Source: Blepharisma japonicum
Taxonomy: Eukaryota; Ciliophora; Heterotrichea; Heterotrichida; Blepharismidae
Direction: 5' to 3'
Length of the DNA stretch: 64,000 nt
NCBI GenBank assembly: GCA_949751835.1
Contig: CATKHK010000044.1
Location: forward strand, 1-64,000
Notes under the pieces: generated by a model
Seen by the model: only the letters and a program-made list of their open reading frames with translations
Database searches by the model: none
What the model was told of the DNA's origin: nothing
In this document: positions 3,435 through 58,083 of the stretch, piece after piece
Numbering within the stretch: position 1 is the stretch's first letter
How the letters are laid out: the number at the start of each line of letters is the position of its first letter
Translations under genes and position numbers: made by a program

Positions 3435-4769
3435 TTAAATACCCTTTGAACTTAAAACCCTTATGATTTTCTCTAACACGCTACCTACAGCAATTTGATC
3501 ACCCAAATTTAAAATTTCTCTTGCGATCTATATAAAGCTTGCCTGCAAAAATTTTTTCATTTCATGGACAAATATAAAAACTTCTTCCACAGTTCTTGAC
3601 TCATTGCCAGCTGTCTTAAAAAGTCTATTAAAATGATTTAAAGCTTCTGACTTGTGTATCTAATTATACCTTACAATGACCTCGTCAGCGTTATTCACAT
3701 CAAGTTCAAAATTTTCACATATGGATTTTCTGAATCTTTCCAAAGCAATGAGCTTAACTTTCATTTTTATAATTGTAGGTAGAATCTGTTCCATATTGAC
3801 ACTTATATCAGCAGCTGGCTCTGGAGAATACAGAACTTTATAGATCGAGCTGATAAATGATTCTATATTAGGGATGATTAAAATCACTTGCTGCATTTTA
3901 TCGATTACTTCAAGAGCTTGACTTGAAGATTTTACTTCGAGCTTATTGAGGATGAGTGGCAATATAGAGTTTTCGGTTGAAGAGTCTTGCGATTTTTCTT
4001 CTTCTTCCTCAGTGCTTGATTTCTGATGCGCAATAGGTGTACTGATTTTAGAATGCTCATAAAGTAAAATAACTGACATGACCTGCATATCTGCTTCTAG
4101 ATCGGGATCATATTCTCGGTGAGTGATATGCTTGAAAATCTCTTTTGATTTATTCTTTGTGTTTGAGTGGATGGCTTTAAGAATATTATCGAGATCGCTA
4201 AACTTAGTGAGTTTTTGCCTTAAATCATCGATTTTTTGATTTCTCTTCTTTAATTTAAGCTTAAGTTCCTGATACTTTTCATTCAACTTATTTAAAGTTT
4301 CCTGAGATGTCTCTAGCACATTTTTCATTTCTTCTATTTTTGTTTCAGAACTTTTCTCGTTTAAAGATATATGATTAAGCAAATTCAAAACTGTTTCTGT
4401 CAGACTTGAATAATCTGGAACCAATTTATTTTCACTTTGAACTAATTTCATTTGTGGAAAATCATGCTCTTTAAGTATTAAATTAATTTGTTCTCATAGC
4501 ACATCTCTCAGGTCAGTTTGTCCGTTTGGTTGATTTCTCTTTGACGAAATAATTTCTATTTCTTTCCTTATTGGTGTTGGAATTTTTTTGCTGTAACTTG
4601 ATTGCCTTGCATCAGCATTGCTTGGAATTTTGATATTAATATTATGAGGTTGAGAGGGTTCCTCAGTGTTCAGATAAGAGGATGGAGTGGTTTGTGATGA
4701 TGCACTAGATGCTTTTGGGTGCGAATAATGCCCAGTTCTTTCTGGATTAGGATAACGACCACTTTCCAT
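3435..4769 (-). CDS. CEP70: CEP70-like centrosome/basal-body protein, 434 aa, two 15-nt introns
   Basis: The start at 4767-4769 follows the last in-frame leader without a better Met. Residues about 88-110 carry the W..IN.ILKEH.FPQMKL box (Trp92 is TGA at 4494-4496) that resembles the N-terminal conserved block of CEP70. A coiled coil follows at about 135-190. The frame hits TAG at 3660, but removing 15 nt (3660-3674) continues into IHKSEALNHFNRLFKTAGNE, which resembles the CEP70 C-terminal region (HFQKLF in the human protein). A second 15-nt removal (3528-3542) continues to TAA at 3435-3437. CEP70 is a centrosomal protein implicated in microtubule organisation and cilia. It is shorter than the human protein (about 600 aa). 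The identification rests on remembered motifs and is moderately sure. Confidence 0.6.
3528..3542 (-). other. 15-nt intron 2 of the CEP70-like gene, GC-AG type
   Basis: On the minus strand the segment reads GCAAGCTTTATATAG. It contains an in-frame TAG, and removing it keeps the frame open for 30 more codons to TAA. It matches the other introns at A3, A4, A10 and TAG, but the donor is GC rather than GT. Confidence 0.65.
3660..3674 (-). other. 15-nt intron 1 of the CEP70-like gene
   Basis: The minus strand reads GTAAGGTATAATTAG, phase 0, with a terminal in-frame TAG. Its removal joins ADEVI to IHKSEALNHF, giving a continuous CEP70-like C-terminal region. Confidence 0.8.
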
Positions 4770-4912
4770 TAAGATTTGATCATATTTTAAGCTCAAAGTA
4801 TGAAAGTGCTTTATTTTAAGTTCAACAAATAAGAAAGTCAACCTCCTTAAATGCACTTTTATTTGTCAAGAAATTCGGATGGAAAAACATCAGTATTATA
4901 AAATAAATTAAG

Positions 4913-5692: not shown

Positions 5693-5838
5693 TTCTTTAA
5701 AAAACGTAGAAATTTATTATGAAAATATTGTAAAACCAATTTGAATTAGCATATCATATTTTGATAATTAAAAAAGATAAAAAATATTTGTTCTCGTTAC
5801 AAATAATTAAACAGATATTCTCAGTTAAATACAATTAA

Positions 5839-7512
5839 ATGGAGCAAGTCGAAAATTTACCTGAGCTCGACACAGAGGTTCAAAATTTAAAATTAATCAT
5901 CAGTACAATCTCATCTGAAGTTGCAAAACAATTCCCAGGCGATCAAGCTTCTTTTATTCAAACAATCCCCAGAAAAGATTTTATGAAAGAAATAAAACTA
6001 AGAAATCAATGAATTGGCACAGCCATGAGTATCTCACAAACCCTTATAGAAAATTATGAAAGTTTGAGAATATTATACAATGATTTAGTTCTTCAGAATG
6101 AATCAAAAGATATAAAAATCAAAAAAAGCCAAGAAGAAATCCAGAGGCTGAAGTTGATTGAAGAGAGTAAGGCAAGCGCTTTGGAAGTTTCAAGAGATAG
6201 CATTGGCTATGGAAGAAGATCTTTATCGAACCAAAGACCAATTGAAGGACTTCTATTTAGCCAGCTTAATAAAGCTGGACGCACACAAGATATCAATAGA
6301 CACACAAAAGATTTTATTCTTAAAGCTGAAAAACAGAGCTTTAACAAGAAATACGAAGAACTGCAGCAAAAATACTTAGATCAGCTCAATGAAAACCAAA
6401 AATTGCAAAGAAATATAGCAAAATTAGAAGAGCTTATAAAATATAATGCAGTACAGAAACAAATTGCTGATTCAAGATATGAAACTTTATTAAGTAACCA
6501 TCATCAAGTTAAAAGTCAGTTAGAAAAATATGAGAAAAAAGGGAAAGATTTGAAGAAAAGAAAAAGCATGATGCCAAAACTTGTTTCCAAACAAGTAAGC
6601 TGAAAATCAGAAGCTGAGAGCTTAGACTCTAAAGATACCAGCTTACTTGATATTTCTGCAGATGCTATTAAGCCTGAAGCATTAAAATTAGGTCTTAGTC
6701 TTGATAATTCTTTAAGCATTATTGATAGTGAAATCAGAGGAAATAGCGAAAATGCTTCAAATGATTCAAGAATAACTACAGAAGAGTCAGATATTATTGA
6801 AAGTGATCTAGTTAAATCCAAAAATTTTGCGAATAAAGGTCTCACAGATTTCAAGAATATTATTAGGTGTCATATACATTCTCAACAAAATATTCAATGT
6901 GCTCCAATAAGCAAGAATTACAATAATGAAATACAAATATTGGATCAAGTATTAATTTTAGGAGAAAGTGTAGAAAACAAAATAAGAAATGAAGAAGAAA
7001 AAAATAAAAATTGCCTTAAGGAGAATTCATTGTCACAAATTTATACAGAGGAGGTCGCAAATATATGCAAATCTCAATTAAAGGAAGAAACAATTGGAGA
7101 CAAAATTGAAAAATTAAGTATTTCAAAAGATGAAGTAATTAGCATTTTTGCCTTTCAGAAGACAATAGAAGCTTTCATCAACAATAAATCAGAAAAAATA
7201 ATAGAAAAGCCGATTGAAGTTGTAAAGATTTCTGCAACTCAAAAGAACAAGCAAAAAGAATATTTTGATATGGTAAAACATATGTAGACTCTCCGTGCTG
7301 TTGAGCAAAATTTGAATTATTCAGAATCAGTCTACTCTAATACACCTCAAATTTTATATGAAAAATTGACAAAATTCAATGTACCTTTCTGCAAATGGCA
7401 CAAATGGGTTGAAAAAGAAATCAAAGCATTTAAAAAGAGAAATTCAGCTGCTTCTGGGCAATTTCAGTCGAAAGTTTGTTCTCTGTTTCCTTTTATGAGT
7501 AAAGATCATTAA
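5839..7512 (+). CDS. Coiled-coil protein, 552 aa, one 15-nt intron
   Basis: The frame opens at ATG 5839 and crosses TGA-Trp codons (for example 6601-6603). It meets a TAG at 7285-7287, and removing the 15-nt intron 7273-7287 extends it by 74 residues to TAA at 7510-7512. Heptad-rich coiled coils cover residues about 60-115 and 150-250. The middle is acidic and Ser-rich and the C-terminus is more globular (NVPFCKWHKWVEKEIKAF). The C-terminal exon stays in the same frame with good composition, which supports the intron. No family was recognised. A cytoskeletal or basal-body role would fit the composition but is speculative. Confidence 0.75.
7273..7287 (+). other. 15-nt intron in the coiled-coil gene
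   Basis: The segment is GTAAAACATATGTAG, phase 0, carrying the only in-frame stop between 5839 and 7510. Reading through it is impossible, whereas splicing adds 74 residues. It has the shared A at position 10. Confidence 0.8.
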
Positions 7513-7982
7513 TGTTTATTTCTCTGATGTGTGAAAACTTTTAATGTAAATTAAATTGCTTATATTTTATTCTTTATATTATTGTTAATTTATAATTAAT
7601 CAGATGTATGGGGAATATCTTAATTGAAAATCTGTTCTTAATTTTTAAAAAAACCATTAAATTTTAATAAGCATTAGAGTTGAAATGGCAAATCTCATAT
7701 AAAAAAATGGCTTTATAATAAAACTGACAGTTTTAAGAAAATAAAGATTTTTTAAATTATTAAAATTAGAGATATTGTGAATAAGCATCACTTAATAAAA
7801 ATATATTTAGCAAAGCAAGAATATTTTAATTGATAGCGCTTATGAAATGCAGTATTTTTTGCAAAAAAAATACTAACATAAGTGCCTGACGCGGAAGAAT
7901 TATATTTAAAATTTTCCCCTATCAATAAGTAACTAATCATTCAAATTGCTTTATAAGTATATAGATAAAATTATAATTCATT
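7513..7982. other. Intergenic, convergent 3' ends
   Basis: This is very AT-rich sequence between two convergent genes. Stops are dense in all frames. I see no gene, tRNA or clear repeat. Confidence 0.6.
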
Positions 7983-10261: not shown

Positions 10262-10325
10262 CTTAATTTTCATTATAATTTCTAAAATTATCAGTTTCCA
10301 TTCGTCCATTAAATTAATCCCTTAA

Positions 10326-11246
10326 TTAAAATATGAATGGGAATAAAGCTTTTCTTGATCTTGGATAAAGCAATTTTCCTTCTTTTCCATCAAACTCTTT
10401 AATATACTTTCTATGCCTCAAAGACGCCCAATTAGAAAGAATATAAATAGTCGCTAATAAGAAAACATAAGCTGGCAGACATGATGACAACACCGCAAAG
10501 CTAGCCCATGAAATTACTTCCCAAAAATAATTAGCACAGCTGACCAAGCCAAACCCGCATCCTTTTGGTATCCCTCTTGTTTTCGTTCCTGGAGGTCTTA
10601 GATTTCTCAGCACCATATGACATAAAAAGTTCATAAATTCAGATCCAAGAAAAACTGCTAGCAAGGCTCCCAATATGGCTGTTGAAAAGTTAGGGTCTGT
10701 ATATTTAGGATGGAATAAGAAATAGCCAATAAAAGCACCGTTTAATATCCAGTAATAAGTACAATTCACGAATAAGTTTTTAAGTGGCATTGTTGCATTA
10801 GAAAAGCGATGGACAAGTAATGACTCTAGTTCACGCTTCAAGAAATGTCCCATGATTAGCCAAAAACAGATTTTTTGTGTAATTGTTTTGGCAGCTTCTT
10901 CTCCATAGAAAATATAAGGCAAGTAATAAAGGGCAGGGCATATAAACAATGGTCCAGCATATTCTACCATATACACAAATCTCCAGCTCAATTGTGTTCC
11001 AAGATCTCTAAAAACAAGAACTTTATCTCCTTTAAGATATTCAGCTAAAGTTTTTTCATCATCATAAAGAGCGACTCCTGTTGGCGTTCTAATAGTGAAT
11101 TTTTGTCTTTCCGGAGACCATTGTTTATCTATTTATGATTTACGTTTCTGATTGAACATTTTCTTGAAATCTTTAACTGTGAGCTTGTCTGTGATAGAAA
11201 ATTTGCCTAGGTCTTTCCCAGATCTGCTGATCACTTCAACCTCCAT
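10326..11246 (-). CDS. TECR: Very-long-chain trans-2-enoyl-CoA reductase (TECR/TSC13), 301 aa
   Basis: This ER membrane enzyme catalyses the last step of very-long-chain fatty-acid elongation, reduction of trans-2-enoyl-CoA with NADPH. The N-terminal ~80 residues form the ubiquitin-like region of TECR (MEVEVISRSG...). A multi-spanning reductase domain follows, with HFLKRELESLLVHRFS, PKGCGFGLVSCANYFWEV and a C-terminal RHRKYIKEF...PRSRKALFPFIF, all typical of the family. Length matches human TECR (308 aa). An in-frame TAA inside codon 38-43 is removed by a 15-nt phase-1 intron (11129-11143). The start codon lies only 31 bp from that of the divergent neighbour. Confidence 0.9.
11129..11143 (-). 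other. 15-nt intron in TECR
   Basis: The minus strand reads GTAAATCATAAATAG. It interrupts the ubiquitin-like region with TAA in frame. Removal (phase 1) gives FNQKHKQWSPERQ and a full-length TECR. Confidence 0.85.
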
Positions 11247-11277
11247 TAAAGATAATAATTAACATCTCTATGCAATT

Positions 11278-12203: not shown

Positions 12204-14498
12204 TTAATCTTCTTGGAGTGTTGCTAATATTTCTTGTATTGCAGTATCCATTTTTTGGATTTTTTTCTTCTTTTTAGGTTTTATCCTGTATTTAAACTTC
12301 GAATCATATTTAGATATTTGTCCAAATGATTGAGCTTCCTTGGCTTCTCCAGAATTTATTTGAATTTTAAGTTTAGCAAGCTCAATTTTCATTTCTCTTA
12401 GCTTAAATTTCGTATCTTGTAAATCGTTTTCAGCAATTCTTTTTCCTGTTTCTTCTTTCTCTATTTTCTGCTTAAGGTTTGCTTGCTCAGTTTTCAAGAA
12501 CTCTCTTTTTGAGCTGAAATCTAAATAAAGCACATTTTCTAATTAAAAGTTACTTTTATTTTCTAGTTTTCTTAATTCTGCATCTGCAAAATCAAGCACC
12601 ATTTTACAAGAGAGCACTTCTTTATTTGCTCTATTGCCCACTATTTTCATCTCTTCTAAAATCTTATTCAAAATTATGCTGAGTTCTTCAGATCTTTCCT
12701 GATATTTTTTATACTCAGCCACAAGCTCATCAAATTTTTCTTTTTCTTTTGCTCTTAGTTCTTCAAGCTTTGACTTTTGGATGAATAATTTATTTTCTGC
12801 ATCTTCTTGCTCTTTTTTCTTTTCATCAATTGATAGCTCTATTTCATCAACACTCTTTTTGTCTACAAATTTTAATCGTTTTAAATCACTTTTTATAGCA
12901 GGTGCTCTTTTACTCCTGAATAAAGCCCTATTGATTTTCATATTTTGGTTGATGCTCTTGATATATTTGTAGTCGAGTGGATTCAAATCTAATGACAGAT
13001 TAAGAATGCTCTTATTCAGTCTTGAGGCTTCTGACAGTTCTCTTCCTGCCCCATCTTTTAAATCGTTTTCTCTAAGTTCAAGTGATTGCAAAGTCTTATT
13101 TTTTTGTAAAGATTCTGCAAGAGACAGGCCACCTTGTTTAGTAATTTTATTGCTAGAAAGATCAATAGAGGTAAGCGAAGCATTTCTTCAAAGTCCAAAA
13201 GCTATATGTTGAACACCTTCATTTCCTAATAAGTTCTTTTTTAATATAAGAGTCTTTAAGCTGAAGTTTTTTCCTAAAGGCTCAGTAATTACTGAAACTC
13301 CTTCATCTTGAAGATTGCAGTTTGACATATTCAAGTATTCAAGCTCTGTGTTTGCTTCTAGCAATTCTTTAATATAATTCGATATATGAGGGCCTAAAGG
13401 ATTATTTTCTATATTAAGAGCTTTTAAATGAGGGTTGCTTTTGAGGGATCTGAATAGTTTTCCTCCACCTCTAAAACTCAATTTATTTCCAGAAGAGTCG
13501 AATTTTTTTAACTGGCACATTGCGCCATAAAGTCCATTAAATAGATTAGCGAAAGGCTCAATTCCTTCATCAGTTATATTATTCATAGAGATATTTAGCT
13601 CTTCCAAATTTGTATTTACAAGAGTTTTTGCTAATAATTCCATAGGTCTTGCTCCAGAGTTATTATTCGACAAATCAAGAAATAATAAAGTTTTATTCAT
13701 TTTGAGCCCCTCTATCAAATTAGTCATTCCAAAAGGCCCTAAAGCAGTACTCGCAAAGTTCAAATAAAGCAAAAGTTTATTATATTTCAGCATTTGTGCG
13801 ACAGATTTTGACGCGGTTGTTGAGAGTCTATTTCTATGTAAACCTTCATGCGATGATATATCAAAACTTATCATTGATGGATGCGCAGTCAATAAATTTA
13901 TAATTACTTTCGCTCCTCCTGGAGTAATGTCATTACTACTTATATCTATATGTACAATGCTTTTATTTTTAGATAAGCATTTTGCTAGATATATAGCACC
14001 TTCATCTCCAATACTATTTTTCGCAAGTAGAATACTATGAAATTTGTTGCTATTTCTTAGCAAATGACCTATTTTTTTGGCAGCATTAGGGCCAATACTG
14101 CATTTCCTCATATCAAACTTTCGATCCTTAAAGCTTTTACCTGAAAACATTTGAAATTTCATTTCTTGCTCTTGATGCAAAGAAATTTGTAAGTCTTCAC
14201 ATTTGGCTTTGAATATTTCTGATAGCTCAGTGTTTGATAACCCATCAAAATATGCTGATGAATTGAGCAATGCTGTTGTAGTTTGTGCTGTAAATGGACG
14301 AGGAAATGATGTATTTAGACAAGAGAAACTTTTTCTATTGGATTGATTTGTTTTTCGAATTGCATCTCTTGAGAGAGTTTTTCTTAAAATTTTATTAGAA
14401 GGAGTTGATATAGCTGTAGAAGGTCGGGCTGGAAGAGTGGTCCCAGTGATTGCATTTTCAAGTTTGGCTCAATGCAAATTTATTGTGTCATTCATCAT
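12204..14498 (-). CDS. Leucine-rich-repeat protein with C-terminal coiled coil, 759 aa, one 15-nt intron
   Basis: ATG at 14496-14498 (a second Met follows immediately) starts a frame with TGA-Trp at 13188-13190 and elsewhere. Residues about 125-520 are ribonuclease-inhibitor-type LRRs (LFLDLSNNNSGARPMELL, LEELNISMNNITDEG, LEYLNMSNCNLQDEGV). Residues about 540-750 form an extended Lys/Glu coiled coil. A TAA at 12543-12545 lies in a 15-nt phase-1 intron (12539-12553), after which the coiled coil resumes and ends at TAA 12204-12206. LRR plus coiled-coil proteins of this kind are common in ciliates and often axonemal, but no specific orthologue was recognised. Confidence 0.75.
12539..12553 (-). 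other. 15-nt intron in the LRR/coiled-coil gene
   Basis: The minus strand reads GTAACTTTTAATTAG, phase 1, with TAA in frame. Splicing joins RKLENK to KNVLYLDFSSKR, so the coiled coil continues for another 110 residues. Confidence 0.75.
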
Positions 14499-17971: not shown

Positions 17972-20900
17972 ATGTCAAGCCGCGGCCAACAGGCAAAACC
18001 AAACTCAGGCAAGAAGAGTGTTCGGGCCAAATCATATGGACCTCGAGTCTTGCTTAACATCCCTGATTTCAAAGCACTTTCAAAAATGATGGACACAGAC
18101 CAAATCGAGCCTAAAATTTCAAGGAAAAAGCTTCCTGAATTAGAAGAACCTCCAATGCCTCCAGCTGTGGAAGAAGAAATAAAGGTAAATGTCAATAACC
18201 CTTGGATATCAGATATCATATCTCAGAAGACATTAGATAGCGCTAAAGGCCTCCCTGCCAGGCATATTAAAGCAGTTATGAAGCATGAGAAAATTATTCC
18301 CACCAAAGATAATGAAACCAGTTTTAAGCTCGATCAATCTGAGCTATCATCCCCTGCAAAAGAAGAACTACCTGGCTCAAACCCAGAAAAAACCAAAAAA
18401 CTTCTCCAGCGAGAATATGCCAACTTTGAAAACCCTGATTTAAAATCAACAAGGGACATTTCAAAATTTGATTGCTGGATAGAATCAATGAAGCCTGAAG
18501 ACTGGGTCAAATTTTATAAAGGAAAACCTGGCCCTCATGGGTCTTCACCAGTTTTTGAGGATGGAGTCTACTCATGGGAACCAATAGACTTACTAGGGTA
18601 TGATTCTAATGGCAAAAAGTTTTTAGTCAGGATCAGAAAAAACATGCTTGAGAAAAAAGTCCAGCGTCTTGCTATTAAATTTCACGATGAAAATCCTAAA
18701 GAATTCGAAGCACGTGTCATCCAAGCCAGAGAACTTCAACAAAACTATGATTCTGAAGTCAGGTTTTTGGACATGGTAGACGCAATTTCAGCTACTGACG
18801 TGTCTCAATTGCGTAAAGATGTCAAGGCAAAAATCTTGAAAAAAGCCGTCGCTACAAGTTTGGAATTTGAAAAAGACAAGTATATGGAACTTCTAAAACA
18901 ACTTGTGTCTGTAATTGACGAAGAATATGTAAGAGCGATGAAAAAGTGTGTAATTTTGCTGAGAATGCAGGACCCGAAAAATGACCATGAATTTATTCAG
19001 AAAAAAATCCCGATTCGGAGGTCAATTCCAGTTATTCCTGAGTTTGGGACCATAACTATTCCTTCCCATCCGTACAAAAAGATGAAAAAAGAGCTTGATA
19101 AAAACCACTGGTATAAGACAACTTCTGTGGTTCAAGTAAATAAAATAATGGCAGCTAAATGCTATAGCTTTCAAGAGCATCGTTTTCTAGAGACAAAAAA
19201 TCTTCTTATGCCAATGGAGCTGAGAAATTTATATAATACTCAAAGAAATCATCATCAGGCTATTAGGCAGCAAATTTCAATCCATTGGAGAGAATATTTA
19301 ATCAGTGAAACCCAAGATAAAATGGCTGAACAATATAATTTCTTTGCTGTTGACTCTGAAGAATATCTAAAAGGAGCTTTACATACCATTTTAAGAAGAA
19401 TGGATTTAATTATGAACACTCAAGTAAGGACTTTTGCAAGGCAAAGCATTGACGATTGAGTCAATTTTTTAAAATCCTTTTCCTCCCCTGAGGAATCTGA
19501 AGTATACAGAAAAAATGAGAAACCTTTAATAATTCTCCAGCTGAACATTGAAGAAGACTCAAGGAAGAAAAAAGATGAGCAGGCAGATACAGTTCCTGGG
19601 CAAATTGATTTTAAGCCAACACTTCAGCAAGCCCACAAGTTTATAAGTGAATGTATTGATTGGATTGTAGAAGCAACCAATAAAATCACGAACCTTGAAT
19701 CTGACTTAGTGCCATTCATGAATATTCCTAAAACCCCAGTTTTCGAATTAAATGAAGAAAGTGAATGGGTCGCAATGGCAAAAAGCGAAATTTCAGCAAT
19801 GATGGAAAAATACCAAAGTGGGCCGCTTCAGATTTTAGAAGAGTTTAAAGCTTTTGAATGGGTTGGGAAAATGAAAATAAAAGATTACGTCAAAGATTTG
19901 CTAAAAGGGAAGCCTTCAATTGACAAGCTCAGAAATGAATTACTGAAGCTTAAAGCTGCAAAAGAAGATTTAGTTTCAATATCAACCTTAGTCATAAATT
20001 ACGATTTTTTCCAAATCCAATGTCACAAGTTCAAAGAAACTATGGATAAGAAAATCAATAAGTGCATGAATGCTTTATTAGAAGGAATCTCTAATTTCTG
20101 TTCAGAAGAAGTCAAAAATATTCAAGATGAGTACGAATTTACTTGCAATAAAGTCAAGACAATCCCAACAAATGAAGCTGAGCTGTTTGAGCTTAAGCAA
20201 TTTGCTAAAAACATCAAGCTGAAAAAGCAAGAACTTATAAATAAAGAAAAAGAAGTTATAAGCCACACTTTGATACTTGAAGACTATCAGTTCAGGCTAA
20301 ATGAAGAAGTCAGTATCAATTTATGGCAGTGTAAAACTTGGCCAATTGAAGTCGAAGCTTCCACAAAAGAAGGCATCGGAAGACTTGAAGTTGAAGAAGA
20401 AAAATTCCGAGAGAAGCTTGAAAAAGAAAAAGACAAGTGGTTCAAAGAAATAAGCCAACTCCATACAGATTTCGAGCTCGTCCAACAGTTTGCAGACTAC
20501 TCCAATTCTTCTTCTCACTATGAAGATGTCAAAAAGCTTGAAGATCATTTGAAGCAAGCCATGGACCAATTCAATTCGTTTAACCAAAGAGAAACTCTAT
20601 TTGAGCTGCAGCTTTCAGATAAAACTGAGCTTCAAAACATGATAGACGATTTTGAGCCTTTCAACAAGCTCTGGACAAATGTCAACGATTTCAAGTATGG
20701 GCACAATTCTTGGACTAATGAGAAAAAAATCCATGAACTCAATTCAGTAGAAATCTCAAGTAATGTTGACAGATGGCTTAGAGAATGTTTTGTGTTAACG
20801 AAAAAACTATTAGAAAAGAGCCCAGAAGCTATTAATGTTATCAACCACTTGAAAGAGCATTTAACTGAGTTCCAAACGAATATCCCTCTTATAAAAGCTA

Positions 20901-23900
20901 TTTCTAACGAAGCTTGGGGCGAAGATCATTGGAGAAGAGTTGCCCAAATTGCAGGACTTCCATCTGAGCAGCTTGATGCCAAGCATGAAACAGTGTCCAC
21001 TTTAATAGAAAAAGGATTAAAGAACTACATAGAAGAAATAGAAGAAGTCTCATACAAAGCACAAAGAGAATTTAAGCTTAAGAAGAAGTTAGAAGAAATG
21101 AAGAAAGAGTGTGAAGGCCAGTTCCTTGAAGTTCTAGCTTATAAGGACACTCATATTGTTAAGTCTGTAGAAGATATACAAACTTTACTAGATGAACAAA
21201 TAGTGAATATTCAAGCCATGAAGACTTCGCCTTATGCGAAGCCAATTGAAAGACAGTGCAAAGAATGGGAATATAGATTGCTACATATTCAAGAGACTCT
21301 TGAACAATGAATGAAATGCCAAACAGTTTGGATGAACCTTGAGCCAATTTTCGCATCAGATGACATTCAAAAACGTATGCCTGGGGAGTATAGAAAGTTT
21401 AGAGGAGTGGATAGTCAATGGAAACTTCATATGGATTCCATTTGCAACCCAGGAGGAAACCAAGCTACTCAGAACACCAATCCGAACCTACTAGACTCTG
21501 TCGCAATAGATGGCGGCACTCTTACACTTTTCAAGGACGCTAATGAAAATCTTGACGAAATCCAAAAATCAATGCATCATTACTTGGAAACCAAACGTCT
21601 CTCTTTTCCACGTTTCTTTTTCTTATCTGACGAAGATTTATTAGATATTTTGTCTCAAACAAAAGACCCTCTTCGTGTACAAGAGCACATTAATAAATGT
21701 TTTGAAGCCATCGATAAGGTTGTCTTCACTGAAAGACAAGAAGTCACTCATATGATTTCTCCTGAAAAAGAAACAGTTCAGCTTATTGATAAAATTGATG
21801 TAAATGAAGGAGACAAAAAAGGGAATGTGGAGTTTTGGATGGGAGACATTGAAAAGTCTATGTATAAGACTATTAAAGAAATCACCAAAAAAAGCTTCAA
21901 TGAATATCAAAAGCAAGAAAGATCTCAATGGATTAGAAACTGGCCATCAATGGTAGTTCTAGGAGTCAATCAGCTGTGTTGGACTGCAGGTGTAGAAGAT
22001 GCTATTAAAAATAATACCATGAAAGCATACGAAGATAAACTCACAAAACTCATCATGGGGGTTGTCGTCATGGTTAGAGGAAAGCTTGATTCTCTGCTGA
22101 GGAAAACACTCTCTGCAGTTATTACACTAGATGTCCATGCTCGTGATATAGTCACTGATTTGAAAACCAAAAAAATCACAAATAATAACCAGTTCGACTG
22201 GATTGCTCAATTAAGATACTACTGGGAAGGCAGCACAGACATTACAGTCAAAATGGTCAACTCTTCTATCAAATATGGCTTTGAGTACTTAGGAAACACT
22301 CCCAGACTAGTTATCACCCCACTCACAGATAGATGCTATAGAACACTAATAGGAGCTTACAACTTATTTTACGGAGGCGCTCCAGAAGGTCCAGCAGGCA
22401 CAGGCAAGACTGAGTCAGTAAAAGATCTGGCCAAAGCAATAGCTGTCAAATGTGTCGTCTTCAACTGTAGTGACTCTCTTGATTTCACATCTATGGCCAA
22501 ATTCTTCAAAGGCCTTGCCTCAAGTGGCTCCTGGTGTTGTTTCGATGAATTTAACAGAATTGAGCCTGAAGTGCTATCAGTCATTGCCATGCAAGTTTTG
22601 CAGATCCAGCAAGCAATAAGAGAAAAACGAAAAACATTTACATTTGAAGGCACGCAGCTTAATTTAGTGCACTCCTGTGCAATCAACATTACTATGAACC
22701 CTGGCTATGCTGGAAGATCTGAGCTTCCTGATAACTTGAAAGCTTTATTCCGGCCTTGTGCTATGATGGTTCCTGACTATGCCATGATCAGCGAAATTTC
22801 TTTGTTTTCCTATGGCTTTGAAAATGCTAGAAGTCTAGCTGCAAAAGTGGTGGCGTCTCTTCGTTTATCGTCTGAACAGTTATCAACGCAAGACCATTAT
22901 GATTTTGGTATGAGAGCAGTTAAAGCGATTTTGACTGCTTGTGGAAACTTAAAAATGAAGTACACTGACGAGGTGGAAGATATTTTGGCTCTAAGAGCAC
23001 TTAATGATGTCAATTTACCTAAATTCACCAGTAATGATATACCACTTTTCCTTGGGATTACTTCAGATTTGTTCCCTGGGGTCACTATTCCTAAGATTGA
23101 TTATGGAATTTTATTAACTTCTATAGAAGCTGCATGTGAAATGCAGAACTTACAAGCAACAGACGAATTCAAGAGCAAATGTATACAGCTTTATGAAACT
23201 ATATGTGTAAGGCATGGACTTATGCTTGTAGGACAAACTTTTTCAGGCAAAACTAAAGTTATCAACACTTTACAAATGGCTCTAAGCAGCGTTCCAAATA
23301 ATCCAGAATTCACTAAAACCCTTAAAATCACCTTAAATCCTAAATCTATCACATTAAACCAATTATACGGAAGATTTATCGCAGAGTCTCATCAATGGTA
23401 CGATGGTGTCATTTCTCAAACGTTTAGAACCTTTACTGCAGAAAAAGGCCCAGAAAGGAAATGGGTTGTATTTGATGGTCCTGTTGATTCCAAATGGATT
23501 GAAAATATGAACACTGTGCTGGATGATAACAAAATGTTGTGTATGCAGTCAGGAGAAATTATTAAAATGACTGAAGGGATGACCATGATGTTTGAAGTCG
23601 AAGACCTAAAAGTGGCATCTCCTGCGACTGTGTCTCGTTGTGGTATGGTTTTCCTTGAACCTCATCGACTAGGCTGGGTCGTTTTAATCCAATCTTACGT
23701 GTACTCGCTACCTTACTTTATCAGAGACAAGCATGGAATGCATATTATTGACACTTTTTCTTGGTTTTCATGGCCATTAACTGAATTTGTAAAGAAAAAG
23801 TGCAAACTCCCTGCACCTGTTACTGAAAATGAAATGGTTAGCACGATTCTCAATATTTTTGACTGCTTTATGATGGAGTACAGAGATATGGTAAGGGAGG

Positions 23901-26900
23901 ATGAAGCTGAATCTCCGACTAAAAATGCGCCTAAAGAGCATGTTTTGCCAAAAGAGTTTGAAGAAAACCTTCCTCAGTGGATTCTTTTCAGTGTAATATG
24001 GGGATTCGGAGGAATTACTGATGAAACTACGAGATCAAAGTTCTCCGAATTCTTAGGAAAGCTCATGGCAGGGGAAAATGTGGTAGATCTCTATAGGCTT
24101 CTTGATACTCCTGAAGACTGGGAACCCAAAAAATATGATTCCAAACTTCCTGGAGAATTCTTTGATATAGTATTTGCAAAGAAATCCACTGGTTACCATT
24201 GGATGCAATGGGTTAATTATCATGCTGGCACATATACTCCTGACAAAAACTCAAATTTCCATGAACTTATTATCCCTACCAAGGATACTATCCGTATTTC
24301 TTATCTTATGCATTTCATGGCTTCTGCTTACAAGCATATCCTTTTCTGTGGTCCAACAGGCACAGGTAAAACAGTGTGTGTTCTTGATACTCTTCGTTCA
24401 TCTTTTTACAATGAAACCTTCACCTATCTTTTTATGGCTTTTTCAGCTCAAACCTCAGCTAATAAAATCCAGCTAATGATGGAATCCTGTATGGAGAAAA
24501 AGTCAAGATTTGTAAACGCACCTGCTGGGAACAGAAAAATGGTCATTTTTGTAGACGACTTAAATATGCCTCAAAAAGAAACATATGGAGCTCAGCCTCC
24601 TATTGAACTTTTAAGACAATGGATGGATCATGAAGGATGGTATGATTTAGAAACCAAAGAATTCAAGAAATTCAAGCTTATACAGTTTGCTGCTTGTATG
24701 GGGCCTCCAGGCGGAGGAAGAAACCATGTCTCACAGAGATATTTGAGACATTTTAATAAACTGTACATTGAGCCGTTTGGAGAGGATTCTTTGAATTCGA
24801 TTTTTTCAACTATTGTGGACTGGTTTTTCATTAAGCAGTCAGAGCCATTTTCACGAGCTATTGTGCAGCAAAAAGAAAATTTGGTTCATGCTACAATACA
24901 AGTTTTCCAGAGGATAAGCAAAGAGTTACTGCCAACTCCTGCAAAAATGCATTATATTTATAACTTAAGAGATGTTTCTAAAGTATTCCAAGGAATTTCA
25001 AATGCCACTGCTTTAGCAATTAAAGAAGAAGCTGATTTAATAAGATTATGGGCTCATGAGTGTCAAAGAGTATTCCAAGATCGTTTAATAAACAATAAGG
25101 ACAGAGAATATTTCAATGATCTTCTTAAAGAATCAATGAAAAAATACTTCAGGAGAAGCTGGGAAGATGTTGTAACAGTAACACCTTTACTTTTCGGGTC
25201 TTTTATACCTATGATCTCTCGTGAAGAAGGAAAAGCTAAAATTCCTGACTTATACTGTGAGCTCAAAGATCAGACATTGCTGCAAGAAAAAATGCATGAA
25301 TTTCTAGAATATTACAACCAAATTTCTCCAGCAAAGATGAACTTAGTATTGTTTATGGCTGCTATTGAGCATGTTGTAAAAATAGTCAGAATAATCCAAC
25401 TGCCGCTTGGAAATGCATTATTATTAGGTGTTGGAGGAAGTGGGAGAAAAAGTCTAACGATGTTGGCTACATCAATAGCTGAGTATTCCATTTTTGAAGT
25501 TGAGGTTAGCAAGAACTTTGGAATGACTGAATGAAGAGACAGACTCAAGGCACTTTTCTTTAAGACTGGTCTTGAAAACCATCCAACAGTTTTCTTATTC
25601 AGTGACACACAAATTTCAAATGAAGGTTTCTTAGAAGACATCAACAATTTGCTGAATAATGGTGAAGTTCCTAACTTATTAGAATCTGAGGACAGACAAA
25701 ATGTTATTGATACATTGCAAGAAGAAGCTAATCAAAATAAGAAAGGAGGCTCAGCAGAAGCAATTCATGCATATTTCATTGAAAGAGTAAGATCTAATCT
25801 TCATCTTGTGTTTTGCTTGTCACCAATTGGAGAGTCTTTTAGGACAAGAATTAGAATGTTCCCATCACTTGTAAACTGTACAACTATTGATTGGTTTTTG
25901 CCTTGGCCTGAAGATGCATTGAGATCTGTTGCCCAGAATTTCTTAAAAGATGTAGACGTTGATAATCAAGTGAAAAAAGGGCTTGTAGAGATATGTGTAG
26001 ATATGCAAGAAAGAGTCACTAATTTAACAGCTCGATATAAAGCGGAGCTTGGAAGACATTATTACATTACCCCTACCTCTTATTTAGAACTTATATATAC
26101 TTTCAAGAATTTACTGAACACTAAAAGAGTTGAAGTCAAAAGACTAGGACAAAGATATGAAAATGGACTGGAAAAGCTCCTCGATACAGCTTCTAAGGTG
26201 TCTGTCATGCAAAAGGATTTAGAAGAATTGCAGCCGAAATTAGTGGTAGCACAGGCTGAAACAAAAGAAATGATGAAAGTTCTGACTGTTCAGCAGAAAG
26301 AAGCACTGGAAATCCAACAGAATTGTGAAAAAGATGAAGCTAGGTGTAAAGAGGAAAGAGAGATTGCTCAAGGAATCAAAAAGGAATGTGAAGAGAAGCT
26401 TGAAGAAGCTATGCCTGCTTATGAACAGGCACAAAAAGCATTGAAGTCACTTGATAAAAGCCAAATTGATGAAGTCAAACATATGGCTAGTCCGCCACCA
26501 GGTGTGAGATTTACTATGGAAGCTGTATGCAAACTGATGGCTATTGAGCCAATCATGGTTCCAAAAGCTAATGGCTTTGGGAAAGAGCCAGATTATTGGG
26601 AAACTGCTAAGAAGAATCTCCTGAACAGACCAAGACTTATGGACGATTTGCAAAATTATGATAAAGATCACATGGATCCTGTTATTGTAGCGACTATTGA
26701 AAAAATTATAACACACCCAGAATTCCAACAAGACAAAATCAAAAGAGCTTCATTAGCTGCATTTGGGCTAAGTATGTGGGTCAGAGCTATGTTTAAGTAT
26801 GATAAAGTCATGAAAGAAATCAGACCTCGACAAGCTGCACTTGCAGAAGCAGAAGCCAGACTTAAGGCTGCCGAAGATGAGCTACGAGTGAAAATGGAAG

Positions 26901-29900: not shown

Positions 29901-30475
29901 CATATCCTTCACTTAAGCCACTAGCTCAATGAATCGATGATTTTATTACTCGTCTGAAGTTCATGCAAGATTGGCTCGATAATGGCCCACCAGTTGTCTT
30001 TTGGATTTCTGGGTTTTATTTCACCCAATCTTTCTTGACGGGAACCATGCAAAATTATTCCAGAAAATACCAAATCCCTATAGATACACTTTGCTTTGAT
30101 TTTGAAGTGATGCCAGAAGCCCAAACTCAAGACGTTATTTCAAGCCCTCCTGCAGATGGATGCTATATTTCAGGCCTTTTCTTAGATGGAGCCCGATGGG
30201 ATGATGAGCTGAAATGTGTGGCAGAACCTCTTCCTAAAATTCTTTATTACCCTATGCCGGTTATTCATCTTCAGCCTACAAAAATTTCAGAGCTTCCCAA
30301 AAAGCATGTCTACGAATGTCCAGTTTATAAGACTTCTAAGCGACAAGGAACTCTTTCTACAACTGGCCATTCTACAAACTTTGTGCTTTCAATTAACTTG
30401 GCACTTCATAACTCTCACAAACCTTCTCATTGGATTAAGAGAGGCACAGCGTTGCTTACTCAGCTAGATTATTAA
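17972..30475 (+). CDS. Axonemal inner-arm dynein heavy chain, DNAH1-like, 4,167 aa, no introns
   Basis: This is a single 12.5-kb frame with seven TGA-Trp codons, several at conserved Trp sites (GMTEWRDRLK at the AAA4 P-loop, KIRDWTLAYLP, NEYELIPWDALKYM). The tail and linker fill the first ~1,430 residues. P-loops are GPAGTGKT (1473, AAA1, the main ATPase site), GQTFSGKT (1754, AAA2), GPTGTGKT (2127, AAA3) and GVGGSGRKS (2486, AAA4). Stalk coiled coils and a microtubule-binding domain lie at about 2726-3050. The C-terminus has LSTTGHSTNFV and HWIKRGTALLTQLDY. FFKGLASSGSWCCFDEFNRI is closest to what I recall of DNAH1; DNAH3/7/12 is the alternative. The length fits single-headed inner-arm chains. 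It drives ciliary beating. Confidence 0.93.
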
Positions 30476-34800: not shown

Positions 34801-35488
34801 TAGCCATTAATGAAGCATCTTTTGCTAGTGTGAATGAAACTGCTTGCTTATCTGAGCTTACATTAAATGACCATAATGGGTCGTTGGATATTGCGATGAG
34901 TTCATTCTTATTGAAATAATACTTGCTCAAATCAGGAACATTCCATCAGCTCACTTCTCCTTTATTATCCATTGCGATTAAATTTCAGTTCCATGAGTGA
35001 ATTCAAGAGACTTTTGATCCCATGGTAAACTTCCCAATTTGTTCCATGGACCAAACGTCTATCAATAAAATTTGTTTGATTTCTCCAGTTGCTGCTATCA
35101 GGCGCTTTTGGATCCCAACGATTTTATCTATCTTAGTTTGCTTTGGGATCATTTTTGATGACGAGGAACTAATACATCGCCCATCACTTATATCTCAGCT
35201 GCGGATTTTATTATCTGCATGGAGCGATATAACTCACATATCACTACTAATTAAATCTGGACTTGGAGGTTTTATAAATGTAAGAGCCTTGCATTCGATA
35301 TCTTTTCCTATTGTGCAGATAATATCAGGCTTATATGTTTTCAACGAAGAAAGCCAAAAGCAAATTTCACCTGTATCAGAGCCTGTACAGATAAACCCTT
35401 CTCTTGCTGCAAGGCATGTGATTCTGTGAATAATATCTTGGGCGTTCTTGTTCCAAAAAATAAAGGGTATGAGGGTTGAAGATGACAT
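31874..35488 (-). CDS. WDR7: WDR7 / Rabconnectin-3 beta homologue, 1,204 aa
   Basis: One frame from ATG 35486-35488 to TAG 31874-31876 contains about nine TGA-Trp codons (for example 32078-32080 in SVRIWKMEKG). The N-terminal ~330 residues hold WD40 repeats: IPFIFWNKNAQD, CTGSDTGEICFW and SWDISDGRCI match the WDR7 start. The middle is helical, with armadillo-like character. The last ~130 residues hold the two terminal WD repeats (VIYDLKTANQWKVLEGHEGP; FDKTGKLLASYSSKDGSVRI), as in human WDR7. WDR7 pairs with DMXL proteins to form the metazoan RAVE-like complex that binds and assembles V-ATPase, and it also acts in vesicle trafficking. It is somewhat shorter than the human protein (about 1,490 aa). 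Confidence 0.85.
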
Positions 35489-35808
35489 TTTAAAGAATTA
35501 TTGGATCTTTGAACAGGAATAATTTGCTAGATAGAAATTACAATATTTTTATTGATTTGACAAATATTAACTATCAAAAATAATTTTTTTCTCATTTTTT
35601 ATATTAAAACTCATAGTCTTAATAACACAATTTCTCTTGATGTTTACCTAGCATTCTAATTATTTTCGTTATGTTTAATAATCATATTTAAGTATCAAGT
35701 CTATACTAGTAATATTTAAAATCCATTTTTGTTTTTTATTCGGGGTAGTAGATAGTTGAGCTTATTATAAACTGAAAAAATTGAATTACATTAAAACTAC
35801 TCAATTAC
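35489..35808. other. Intergenic, 320 bp
   Basis: AT-rich spacer between two minus-strand genes. It should hold the WDR7 promoter. Nothing else was recognised. Confidence 0.5.
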
Positions 35809-36487
35809 TTAGCCATTTCTATGACTCATTTCCTCACATAATTCTTTTATGAGAATTTCCACAATGGTTTCAGGAGAGCAATATCTCATTTCGGGATCCT
35901 GCTTTGCTTTTTTAATAAGGCAATTCCATCGATTTTTAACGTTATTTTCGTTACGTCCAGGGAGTTCTTTTGCAATCAAACTCCATTTATTTCCGAATTG
36001 CTTCTTTAATTGAAGCAAGTATATATCTTCTTCATAAGTCCATTCTCCTTCTAATATAAATCTTACTGTTGAGCTGTGGATTTAAATGGTTGTGCCACCT
36101 TTCTCGACAGTGTTTGCCTTTTCTGACCTCATTCCCACCATGAAACTCCTTATTGATCTCTTGTGCAACCAAAGCTCATTTCTTTAAGCCATGTAAGTTG
36201 ACAAGATCTTGAAGGAGCTTTTCTTCTTTTTCTTTTCATGATACAGTTCGTATGCCTCCTCTGCTAATCTTTGGTTTATTATTATTAGCTGCCTGTGAAT
36301 TTGTGTTTGGCATAAAGTTGAATGTTTGATTCAGATTGTATATTGGGATATAAGTATTGGTATTAAAGTCAGGAATGCAAGGCACCCAGACACAGCCTTG
36401 AGAAATATTCTCAAAATTAGGTAGCTGCTGGCTATATTGATTATATTGATAAAAGTCCCAATACAAATTATTGTTCTCCTTATCCAT
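35809..36487 (-). CDS. R2R3-type Myb DNA-binding protein, 220 aa, one 16-nt intron
   Basis: Two Myb repeats follow an Asn/Gln-rich leader of about 80 residues. The first (KEKEEKLLQDLVNLHGLKKW...GKHCRERWHNHLNP) has two Trp encoded by TGA at conserved positions. The second (KGEWTYEEDIYLL...NKWSLIAKELPGRNENNVKNRW) follows immediately. RERWHNHLNP and GRxxNxxKNRWN are hallmark motifs of c-Myb-like R2R3 proteins. The frame change between repeats is resolved by a 16-nt GT-AG intron at 36051-36066. It is presumably a sequence-specific nuclear transcription factor. Confidence 0.88.
36051..36066 (-). other. 16-nt intron in the Myb gene
   Basis: The minus strand reads GTAAGATTTATATTAG. Removing 16 nt restores the canonical junction HLNPQLNKGEWTYEEDI between the two Myb repeats; without it the frame is wrong. 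Confidence 0.88.
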
Positions 36488-37108: not shown

Positions 37109-38221
37109 CTATTTATTTTCAGCCTTCTTTCTAGCTTGGTTTTTCCATTTTCTTCCATATAATTTCTATATAACTCTTACGGCTATAACCATTGCTCTAA
37201 TTGGCTTCACGGCTTGAATAATTTCTTCCTCTGTTGGGGCAATAATTGGCTCTGTCGTTGGAAGTAGAGGATGGCAATCCATATTAATCCACGGATCTTG
37301 CAATAATTCATACATCTTTATCCTTGTATCAGGGTTTTTATCAAGTAATCTAATCAATAAATTTTGTAACTGGGGTGAAATTTGTACTGTTTGATCAAAT
37401 GCTAGCTCAAAGCTTTGAATTGCATCAAAAATTGATAAAAGTGAATCTCCTGCTATATAAGGCAATTTTTTGTAAATCATTGCATATAATGTAAGCCCCA
37501 AGGCCCAAATATCAGCTGATTTCCCTGAAAATCCTTCAGTTTCAGGCGAGCAGCACTCAGGTGGGAAAAACTGATAAGTCCCTAAGGTTCTGCTTTCTAC
37601 ATCACTTTCCCCAAATATATGAGCTTGGCCAAAATCTCCAATTTTTACATTCCACTCATCAGTGAGTAAAATATTTTGTGGCTTAATATCTCTATGGATA
37701 ATATTATGATAGTGTAAATATTCCAGCCCACATACCATGTCTCTAAAAAATTTTCTAATTTGCTGTTCTCTGATGACTCCAGAAGAATTCCAAGGGAAAT
37801 AAAATGTCTCATTATCAGCATCCCACTCCATAATAGCGCCTTTCCCACAGAAATCCATGATCATGTAGATTTTGTCTCTATCTTCATCATCAATTACTTC
37901 ATATAGAGAAACCACATTGACATGGTTTAATTTTTTCATCAGCGCAATTTCTTTCGCTACGTCCTGTAGAGCATTAGTAACAGTCATCCCGCCGTCTTCA
38001 TTTCTGTAGTAATCTCTCTTTTTGCGAAGCAGTGCTTTGTTGTAGATTTTGACAGCATAAAGCTCAGCTCCTTTTTTGCAGAGCTTTACCTTACCAAATG
38101 CTCCTTCTCCAAGGTTTTTGATGATGGAGTACTGATTTACCATTGTGTTTCCGTCTTGATCAACCCCACGGACAACTTCATTAGTTTCTATAACTGTGTG
38201 TTTGGCCTCTTCTTCTGACAT
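37109..38221 (-). CDS. CaMKK/LKB1-like serine/threonine kinase, 365 aa, one 15-nt intron
   Basis: All catalytic motifs are present: LGEGAFGKV (37-45), Lys58 in YAVKIYNK, HRDIKPQN (Asp178) and DFG (196-198). GTYQFFPPECC replaces the APE region, and GFSGKSADIWALGLTLYAM follows. The insert after the ATP site and the LDKNPDTRIKMYELLQDPWI ending are typical of CaMKK/Elm1/LKB1-type kinases that act upstream of AMPK. I chose the Met of MSEEEAKH (38219-38221) because an earlier in-frame Met would overlap the divergent gene. A TAG at 37166-37168 is part of a 15-nt intron, and splicing adds a basic 18-residue tail (KLYGRKWKNQARKKAENK). Confidence 0.85.
37166..37180 (-). other. 15-nt intron near the 3' end of the kinase gene
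   Basis: The minus strand reads GTAAGAGTTATATAG, phase 0, ending in an in-frame TAG. Spliced and unspliced products differ only in the last residues: an 18-residue basic tail against three codons. Confidence 0.7.
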
Positions 38222-50912: not shown

Positions 50913-50933
50913 ATTTACAATTGAGTTTATAAA

Positions 50934-52562: not shown

Positions 52563-52604
52563 AATTTAGGTAAATTAAGCATAAAATATCAGTAATTTAT
52601 AGCT

Positions 52605-55352: not shown

Positions 55353-55724
55353 GTTAGTTTTTAGGTTAAATTATTTGAAAAAGTTTATATCGGCGTTATG
55401 AAAAATACTTTCAGTTGATTTATTTCTATATTCTTAATTAAGGCTAGGTTATTTTGAGCGAATACTAAATAGTCTCTATAATCTCAGTTTGAAATTGAGT
55501 TCTAATAACTACGAATGCAGATAACCTCAAAATATAAAAATATGTTTAATTCCTGCATTTTGGGTAACTTATTCAATAGTTATAAGGAAATAAAAAAAAT
55601 TATTGGAGTCATAAGAGGAAACAAGTAGTATATTTAGCAAGTTTGAAGGACATTATTATCAGCATTTATACAACTCAGCTTGCTTTCATTTTTTAACGAT
55701 TTTAATTAAATCAATGTTTAATGT
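55353..55724. other. Intergenic, 372 bp
   Basis: AT-rich sequence separating two minus-strand genes. It has no coding frame and no recognised RNA or repeat. Confidence 0.5.
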
Positions 55725-58083
55725 TTATAAAATTTTGTTTATAATTGACTGCAGCACTTCTCTTCCAGCACTTTTTGGTATTGTTTCATCAATGCCAGCT
55801 TCTTTATAACTCGCTAAATTTCCTTCTTCATTATTTGAATACATCGCAATAATATGGGGCTTCCTGGCATATTTATATCCATTTTGCCTAATTATTTTCG
55901 CTGCCTCAACACCATTAGGAACATCTATTACTATAATGCATAAAGAGTTCTCTCCGGCTGCCTTTGTAACTTTATTTGCCAAATCCTCTTTATTTCCACA
56001 GATTTCTACCTCTTTCCCTAAAATAGCTTCCATATTTTTCTGTAGGGAATTTGCGAGGAATTTATTTCCTATCAAAATAAAACCTTTGTGGATTACATGA
56101 AAATCTGATAAAAAAGAGCCATTGGAATTATGCATAAATGATGAGGTGTTTACAGGCAAATGATTAATTCGACCTGGAACTTCTATTTCTTTTTGTAAAT
56201 AATGTGATAAACCGAAAATAGTGACATTTTCATCAACATCATCTTCTCCATTTTCACTTTCTTCAGCATCTTCTGGGTGATTTGGCTTAAGTTTGTTATC
56301 TTGCAAATAAGAAGCTGATTCTTTTGTTTCTTGCTCCGAGAAATATCTTTCCCTGCTTTGGTTAATTTGTATAATTTCTGTTTTTTCTTGGCTCCAGCGT
56401 CATGAAATAGTTGTGGAGTCTATATCAGCAGAGTTCTCATATAATTTTATTTGTGGAGCATCAATGGCGGCTTGTCCTGCATGCTCTTGAAGTTTTAAGC
56501 TATAAACTAAATGAAATACAGGCGGTTGTTGTGGGCCGTGACTTAAGATTTGTCCTCCAAGAATAGTTAGCATGATATCAAACATAGCTAGCTCTACTGT
56601 ATCATATTTTTTTAAAATTTCATGCATTTCTTCGATTTTTTTAATTTTATTGGGGTCATTGCTGAATAAATAATTAAATTCATTGATATCTAAAGTTTGA
56701 GAGTCAAAAGTAAAACTATAATTTATATATGTTTCATTATCGTGAGTCTATATGAAAATTACAATTTTTCCTAGAAAAACTGAGATGTTTGATTTTTTGT
56801 CTGATTTTAAAATGATAAAATGAATCACTCCTTTCAATAGATTATTATGTAATTGCCTATCACAAAAAATAGGACTGTTAAGATCTGGATGCTTGCTAAG
56901 AGTAATATTCAATTTTTTAAGTTTTGCATCACATCATGACCATTGTATGATATTTGCAATCTCAACTTCAGCATCAAATTTATCATTTTTCAGACTCACA
57001 TCCCCAATTAAACACTGCAAAACTGTTCTTGTCATTTTTTGGCATGAAATACATTTAGCAAGTCTTGTGAATTCGTTTTCAGAAATTGCGGTTTGCTGAA
57101 CATAGCATTCAGTTAATTTTTTTTCTGTTTCTGATACTTTAAATTCCTGAGCTTTATTAATAGAGGCTAAAAAATTTCTTCTTGCAATTTGGTTACTAAT
57201 ATCCGATATGGTTAGATGAATTGCAGGCTTATGATTAAAATGCACTGGTTTCGCTTTTACTAATATTGGCATTGAGTCCAAAGTCAATTCTTCTTCAACT
57301 ATCATTCCTTCTAAAGCATTTTTTAAAATTTTATCAATAGTTTCTTTTGCTGTAAGAGTAAAAAATTCTGTAGCATGAGCTCCTAAAACTCGAGAAAGCC
57401 CTCTTTTGTCTGCATATGCAATAGCTGCATCATTTGTCATAATAATTCTTTCATCCTCTCCTATAATCAAAATTGAATTACTGCTGCTATCTATGATGAA
57501 GCTTTGAAATATTGATCTAGCTCTATAAATATCAACAAGTAGTCACAAGTCTCTTCTATCTTTTTCAAGAAGTGACATAACCAGTGTCAAAATCACCCCT
57601 GTAACAATACTTTGAGGAATGTTAAGTTCAATTCCATGGATTATCTCAATAAATATAAAAAGTAAGTAAAATCCAACATAACTAATTCATGTTTTATAAG
57701 TGTAATAGTCTATATAGAAAATTACGTATCACTCAATCAACAAAATATCCTAGCATTAATACGTCATTTTCCCTAAGTTGAATTTCTATTGCTAATCCAA
57801 TTATTAAACCCCCTAATCTTGCAATTGTCATTTGATAATTCAGCCCAAGCCATAAGCATCCACTTAAAGTAGAAAATATAATAAAGCAAATTGAGTATGA
57901 TTTCATCGCTCAGTAGACAAGAGCTATGAAGCTCCCTACAAAGGCAAAAAAAAATTTTAATGATGTTCATGAGTACTTAAAAATTTCTGATTGGAACTTG
58001 GATTCTGTTTCATGATTTTCATAGTAAAGAAAAGGAGACTGTTTATAAATGTAATCAATTGAGTATTTATAGTTTGTTCCCAT
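55725..58083 (-). CDS. Degenerate membrane hybrid histidine-kinase-like protein, 775 aa, introns of 16 and 15 nt
   Basis: About six membrane helices fill residues 38-165. A PAS-like domain (about 178-290: SILIIGEDERIIMTNDAA) and a helical linker follow. An ATPase-like region has RQLHNNLLKGVIHFIILK in place of the N-box and a GGQIL fragment. A receiver-like domain ends the protein (about 655-775: IVIDVPNGVEAAKIIRQ, then IPKSAGREVL). No phospho-acceptor His motif (HExRxP) and no acidic pocket (ILIGNK replaces the DD pair) are visible. The receiver keeps one Asp and the Lys. Two introns (57710-57725, 56748-56762) are needed for continuity. The protein probably signals without catalysis or is a sensor scaffold. 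Confidence 0.7.
56748..56762 (-). other. 15-nt intron in the histidine-kinase-like gene
   Basis: The minus strand reads GTAATTTTCATATAG, phase 0, with TAG in frame. Removing it joins SVFLGKI to THDNETYINYSF inside the ATPase-like region. Confidence 0.8.
57710..57725 (-). other. 16-nt intron in the histidine-kinase-like gene
   Basis: The minus strand reads GTAATTTTCTATATAG, almost the same as the 15-nt intron downstream with one extra T. Removing it switches frame from the N-terminal membrane helices to the rest of the protein; both frames are closed otherwise. Confidence 0.8.

Follow-up and report, generated by a model that had tools for sequence, protein, structure and literature searches.

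The primary account of the tiny introns of the heterotrich ciliate Stentor coeruleus is reportedly the 2017 paper of Slabodnick et al. According to excerpts of PMC9505925, 8173 of 8806 Stentor introns are 15 nucleotides (nt) long and the other 633 are 16 nt, mostly with GU-AG borders; the branch adenosine is at position 10 in 8005 of the 15-mers and at position 11 in 442 of the 16-mers, and the recognition sequences of U2 and U6 are conserved. A conserved A near the 3' end of Stentor introns is also described in part of PMC10946202, and for heterotrichs in general a passage of PMC11441545 gives about 95% of introns as 15 bp and the rest as 16. The introns in the Stentor pyriformis paper are algal group I introns. 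Here we analyze the first 64 kb of contig 44 (CATKHK010000044.1) of the Blepharisma japonicum genome (45.2 Mb in 224 contigs), a stretch of 64,000 nt referred to below as the window, in which a first-pass annotation had proposed seven segments of 15 nt and two of 16 nt as spliceosomal introns. All nine segments are present. The tiny-intron trait is already published for Stentor and Blepharisma and the window mostly confirms it: eight of the nine segments are read here as ordinary heterotrich tiny introns in a genome with TGA as tryptophan, predicted to be cut by a canonical U2-type spliceosome through an adenosine at position 10 (A10), and we give this reading a probability of about 0.95.

The consensus GTAANNNNNANNTAG, that is GTAA-N5-A-N2-TAG, has exactly seven matches in the window with both strands counted, at 3660-3674 (-), 7273-7287 (+), 11129-11143 (-), 12539-12553 (-), 35527-35541 (-), 37166-37180 (-) and 56748-56762 (-), which we take to be the seven 15-mers annotated before. 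In 100 dinucleotide shuffles of the window the mean number of matches was 2.05, the largest 6, and none of the 100 reached 7. When the GTAA..A..TAG form is counted over lengths of 11-24 nt, the combination of 15 nt with A10 is the highest cell (7) and the runner-up has 5. Forced splicing joins open frames at all of the 15-mers except 35527-35541, with open codons upstream and downstream of 478/74, 329/340 (at 56748-56762), 410/18, 662/111, 38/267 and 407/43; four of these six are phase 0 introns and the other two are in phase 1. All six carry an in-frame stop, which is unavoidable when introns are found by frame breaks. The two 16-mers restore the frame as well: 36051-36066 (-), GTAAGATTTATATTAG, has A10 and no A11, and 57710-57725 (-), GTAATTTTCTATATAG, has A11 and so keeps the distance of its A from the 3' end, as had been stated.

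The window is 66.6% A+T. Its longest open frame has 4174 codons when TGA is read as tryptophan versus 1408 with the standard code, and an intron-free dynein heavy chain of 4167 amino acids at 17972-30475 (+) needs that reading. The 4174-codon frame is the one that encodes this dynein, and the genome is read here with TGA as tryptophan. A search of the window against Rfam at gathering thresholds gave no match.

Homologous protein continues in frame across the junction at eight of the nine segments, which supports their identification as tiny introns from sequence comparison. The clearest frames belong to known families. In the very-long-chain enoyl-CoA reductase gene at 10326-11246, the phase 1 intron GTAAATCATAAATAG (11129-11143, -) is removed to give a protein whose residues 18-300 align to art-1 (22of_A) with an E value of 8.4e-62 and no gap at the junction; the gene has a PF02544 match and a TECR_N match below its cut-off. 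Splicing of the phase 1 16-mer GTAAGATTTATATTAG at 36051-36066 joins the two repeats of a two-repeat Myb gene (35809-36487) in frame, and the best-matching segment in the alignment to c-Myb (1h88_C; E value 1.6e-33 for the whole sequence) is gap-free over the junction between RWHNHLNPQLN and KGEWTYEED. In the protein kinase gene from 37109 to about 38221, the phase 0 intron GTAAGAGTTATATAG (37166-37180, -) leaves a second exon of 18 codons; a paralogue at G000:C6:274193-274426 (64% identical) has at the same codon a differing 15-nt segment, GTAATTGTTATTTAG, with an in-frame TAG, followed by KLYGRKWK.

The remaining genes were compared mainly with their paralogues. The membrane-protein-like gene at 55725-58083, in which PAS and receiver matches are weak and below cut-off, has as its first intron the phase 1 16-mer GTAATTTTCTATATAG (57710-57725), whose removal restores the frame with 139 open codons upstream, and further on the phase 0 15-mer GTAATTTTCATATAG (56748-56762, -). 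The paralogue nearest to it, L036, matches with 71% identity over 506 residues and carries the 15-nt intron GTAAAAATTATATAG at the site of 56748-56762 and GTAATTTATACGTAG at that of 57710-57725; ten more distant matches, 23-28% identical, were left out of the comparison. In the coiled-coil-like gene at 3528-4769, which has Pfam matches only below the curated cut-offs, the 43-amino-acid exon 2 that follows the phase 0 intron GTAAGGTATAATTAG (3660-3674, -) is homologous to the paralogues, and among six paralogue matches a 15-nt intron is at this site in L037, L038 and L044 and none is there in L039, L040 and L045. The gene at 5839-7512 has the phase 0 intron GTAAAACATATGTAG (7273-7287, +), for which one of four paralogue matches, L042, has a 15-nt intron and L041, L043 and L046 are continuous. 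In the gene at 12204-14498 the phase 1 intron GTAACTTTTAATTAG (12539-12553, -) was compared with four of six paralogue matches, the two left out being on C25 and C14 with one in-frame TAG each; L047 has a phase 1 15-mer with a stop, L050 has one without a stop, and L048 and L049 have no intron. Two further consensus-form 15-mers are seen at the alignment ends of L038 (253-267) and L044 (202-216, both in match orientation), where the gene at 3528-4769 has none.

These alignments bear directly on the possibility that the segments are read through, with TAG or TAA decoded as an amino acid or skipped and no introns at all. The 15-mers are in frame, and decoding one stop as sense would keep the frame just as splicing does; for the 16-mers, which shift the frame, readthrough is impossible, and art-1 and several paralogues are without exactly the five residues that a retained 15-mer would add. 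We consider readthrough very unlikely.

The length and borders of the segments were approached in a manner that does not use the inner motif, with a gene finder based on codon scoring in which any GT...AG segment of 10-30 nt could be skipped at a flat cost. It was applied to 314 kb, composed of the window, the adjoining 50 kb and 200 kb elsewhere, and genes above a score limit were kept; the counts from here on refer to this sample unless they are called genome-wide. Of 19 skips, fifteen were 15 nt long, one 16 nt, two 17 nt and one 29 nt. With eleven other border pairs the number of skips ranged from 7 to 28 and included at most one of 15 nt per pair, so that among the 12 border pairs the 15-nt peak appears with GT-AG only. 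The gene finder called two of the nine window segments (those starting at 56748 and 12539), and the uncalled ones have a short end exon, are in a weak gene or are outside coding sequence.

Removal of the segments as DNA, either as internal eliminated sequences (IESs) or as retained germline pieces, has in its favor that Blepharisma carries around forty thousand IESs and that roughly 70% of these are within genes. The ends of IESs are described as repeats that include TA, and their median length is 255 bp; the segments have instead GT...AG ends, A10 and a fixed length of 15 or 16 nt, and do not show the features by which IESs are recognized. An origin as IESs is thus extremely improbable.

Motif counts point to the same length. 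The cell of 15 nt with A10 has 31 matches in the sample, the highest of all cells over lengths of 11-21 nt, and the next has 21. Genome-wide, 4920 matches are found for 15 nt with A10, 1563 for 16 nt with A11 and 1555 for 16 nt with A10; if the 16-mer counts stand for the background, about 3,360 of the 15-nt matches are in excess. When the 31 matches were set against gene models that allow 15-mers with A10, 12 were spliced, three were at a predicted stop, three were silent inside coding sequence, two were just upstream of an ATG and one was antisense to a predicted coding sequence, with ten being none of these, including the homology-supported 11129-11143. In a separate observation, two identical pairs of 15-nt motifs at G000:C1:56314-59002 have the same spacing of 2202 bp (56314/58516 and 56786/58988), probably as the result of a tandem duplication carrying its introns.

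The set could also consist mostly of chance motif matches that were picked for rescuing frames. From the shuffles about two matches per window are expected, and 35527-35541 indeed fits no frame. However, at eight of the nine segments the protein homology extends to either side of the junction, and only one of the 31 matches is antisense to a predicted coding sequence, making a set assembled mainly by chance highly improbable.

The reading as ordinary tiny introns has to be weighed against several observations that do not favor it. The motif match GTAATTTCTATCTAG (35527-35541, -) is intergenic and precedes the ATG of a WD40 gene (31874-35488) by 38 nt; a TAA at 35498-35500 is between the match and this downstream ATG at 35488, and no coding frame crosses the segment. 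It is either an intron of the 5' untranslated region or a chance match, and as an intron it is unsupported. The statement in the first-pass annotation that the nine segments explain all frame breaks in recognised genes thus stands for the other eight and falls for this one, which interrupts no coding frame. Where the intron at 12539-12553 has its 3' border is also in question: directly after the 15-nt intron, AAAATGTGCTTTATTTAG (within 12521-12553, -) has an end that resembles a second 3' splice site, TTTATTTAG, and it adds six codons (NVLYLD) that by eye are absent from the four paralogues compared, making a 33-nt intron or an alternative 3' site possible. When the borders were left free under a heavier penalty, the gene finder gave no length peak (one of 11 skips at 15 nt), and when the A10 condition is dropped GTAA...TAG occurs 44 times at 15 nt and 45 times at 22 nt. 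The reversed-pattern control gave 3478 genome-wide matches for the 15-mer versus 4920 forward. For the 16-mers the reversed patterns gave about 4310, above the 16-mers themselves, and hence this control overstates the background and is a poor control for composition. Finally, A11 as the rule for 16-mers is followed by one of the two in the window, and the genome-wide 16-mer counts fail to separate A10 from A11.

The inner positions of the introns indicate which features are constant. Among the 15 introns of 15 nt called by the length-free model, without reference to an inner motif, A10 is present in 15/15, while five end in CAG, three have no A4 and one has no A3, four in total departing from A3 or A4. 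The generalization that every intron ends in TAG therefore holds for all seven window 15-mers (GTAANNNNNANNTAG) and is no general rule, and of the proposed constant A3, A4 and A10, all true of the same seven, A10 alone persists throughout the larger set. Introns in phase 1 are biased to A10 because their stop, formed by T9-A10-R11, contains it; without the three phase 1 introns A10 is found in 12/12, A3 in 12/12, A4 in 9/12 and A at any other inner position in at most 6/12. Over the 29 introns of all sets, four of them selected with the motif of the window and ten taken from paralogues with a listing pattern that required A10, T9 is present in 24 and A10 in 29. A10 is a fixed and real feature of the 15-mers, and its position, six bases from the 3' end, makes it the putative branch point.

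Since 15 is a multiple of three, an intron of this length without an in-frame stop breaks no frame and is missed by frame-break detection. A phase 0 intron has its terminal TAG as an in-frame stop and a phase 2 intron has the TAA at positions 2-4; a phase 1 intron has a stop only if positions 6-8 or 9-11 form one. Among the 15-mers called by the length-free model, 14 of 15 have an in-frame stop. Protein homology placed ten introns in the paralogues, eight with a stop and two without; the two end-of-alignment 15-mers (L038, L044) are not counted here, nor are four pattern matches that are coding by alignment (in L036, L043, L049 and L050). The two stop-free segments, GTAATTTATACGTAG (L036:362-376, +) and GTAAATTCTATATAG (L050:428-442, +), are both in phase 1, have the consensus form and read as coding in a plain open reading frame search. 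The former coincides with a five-codon alignment gap exactly at the site of the frame-shifting 16-mer 57710-57725, and the latter is at the site of the window intron 12539-12553. Both are likely, as judged by alignment, to be frame-silent introns at sites homologous to those of the window.

Stop-free motif copies in predicted coding sequence show no clear excess in the sample: the looser 15-nt form GTA..A..YAG has 12 sense versus 17 antisense copies, and the GTAA form has 9 sense versus 5 antisense. At three sense copies (3660, 37166 and C44:89465) the predicted gene had ended at the segment's own TAG. As copies in coding sequence are not clearly in excess, silent introns are probably not common. 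The joint proposal that a substantial fraction of 15-nt introns in this lineage is frame-silent (phase 1, no stop at positions 9-11, five extra codons) and that 15 and 16 nt interchange at one site seems to us evenly balanced. If it is true, retention of a silent intron would neither shift the frame nor stop translation, and, taken with the changed tip of Cwc25 described below, the spliceosome would measure a fixed distance from the branch to the 3' site and tolerate one base in the 5' spacing. Among the titles listed by literature searches, none concerns in-frame stops within the 15-nt introns of heterotrichs, and the supplements of the Blepharisma and Stentor papers may hold the point; in an excerpt of PMC5014332 the words 'Stentor' and 'heterotrich' do not occur.

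The genome encodes the components expected to recognize these introns. U6 has one genome match (92.8 bits), in which the ACAGAGA box is intact; the GUAGUA branch-binding site is likewise intact in three U2 genes, and a protein with an SF1-HH domain, homologous to the branch-site binding protein SF1, is encoded. The presence of canonical U6, U2 and SF1-HH indicates an ordinary U2-type spliceosome, the substrate of which would have 9 nt from G1 to A10 and 5 nt beyond. The third U2 gene, at L032:1501-1693 (+), has diverged stem-loops (130.8 bits versus 161.2 and 156.9 for the others) and an unchanged branch-binding site. In the ISY1 homologue the best-matching regions start at residue 31 against the ISY1 chain of the human structure 6ff7 and at residue 10 against isy-1 of 8ro0, so that its first residues are not conserved. 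The CWC25 homologue is the sole Cir_N match (L033:763-1638, -) and starts with MGLKFLNKKSWH. Human Cwc25 has Gly2-Gly3-Gly4 and Stentor Cwc25 is without the glycine motif, according to excerpts of PMC9505925. Of the three plug glycines the homologue here retains one, the first. In the same excerpts it is conjectured that changes of this kind make room for a 10-nt loop, and our Cwc25 and Isy1 sequences are compatible with this conjecture. Beside the CWC25 gene, a neighbouring gene at L033:1695-2385 (+) has a predicted 16-nt intron, GTAAAAATTAATTTAG, with A at both 10 and 11.

From these sequences we infer splicing itself, the use of A10 as the branch point and a pairing scheme. U6 would pair with GUA(A) at the 5' end of the intron and U2 with the U-rich stretch around A10. 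A10 would then attack G1 to give a lariat loop of 10 nt with a tail of 5 nt, and the terminal AG would serve as the 3' splice site. In size the introns come close to the lower limit for spliceosomal introns, and with nine nt from G1 to the branch A they make spliceosome geometry testable. Eight of the nine segments fit the annotation's view of tiny spliceosomal introns of heterotrich type in which A10 is the candidate branch point, a view that agrees with what is published for Stentor and Blepharisma. Three points are added here: a search by frame breaks alone can overlook 15-nt introns; at a given site paralogues differ in whether an intron is present and in its length (15 or 16 nt); and in a second genome with tiny introns the Cwc25 glycine plug is mostly gone, as reported for Stentor.

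Comparison with the related systems places these introns within the heterotrich pattern. The closest likeness is to Blepharisma stoltei, for which parts of PMC9942806 report UGA as tryptophan, an AT content of 66%, the telomere repeat CCCTAACA, a gene-dense genome and introns mostly of 15 or 16 bp, all as here. The three-unit pattern of CCCTAACA has 168 genome-wide matches in our assembly versus 0 for its reverse, and among the matches listed, those on contigs of known length (C5 and C38) are at the contig ends and several others are at contig starts. By the same parts of that report the B. stoltei assembly is 41 Mb in 64 telomere-to-telomere sequences, in contrast to 45.2 Mb and 224 contigs here. 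Multi-exon genes of B. stoltei, 4670 of 25,785 in an excerpt of PMC10946202, are of the same order as the excess copies of the 15-nt A10 motif. Loxodes magnus, a karyorelict and a member of the sister group of heterotrichs, also has very short introns, and differs, according to a passage of PMC11441545, in a mode of 17 bp, a negligible number below 16 bp and a depletion of multiples of three, whereas introns here are mostly 15 nt, a length divisible by three. With Stentor, as far as the excerpted descriptions go, our introns share the lengths of 15 and 16 nt, the GT-AG borders, A10 in the 15-mers, the conserved recognition sequences of U2 and U6 and a Cwc25 glycine motif that is lost or mostly gone, and they differ in the genetic code, which is standard there, whereas TGA is tryptophan here. 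The 16-mers of Stentor usually have A11, with the extra base 5' of the A; 57710-57725 fits this arrangement and 36051-36066 does not, the latter with its A10 and no A11 resembling the minority of 191 Stentor 16-mers that have the A elsewhere than at position 11.

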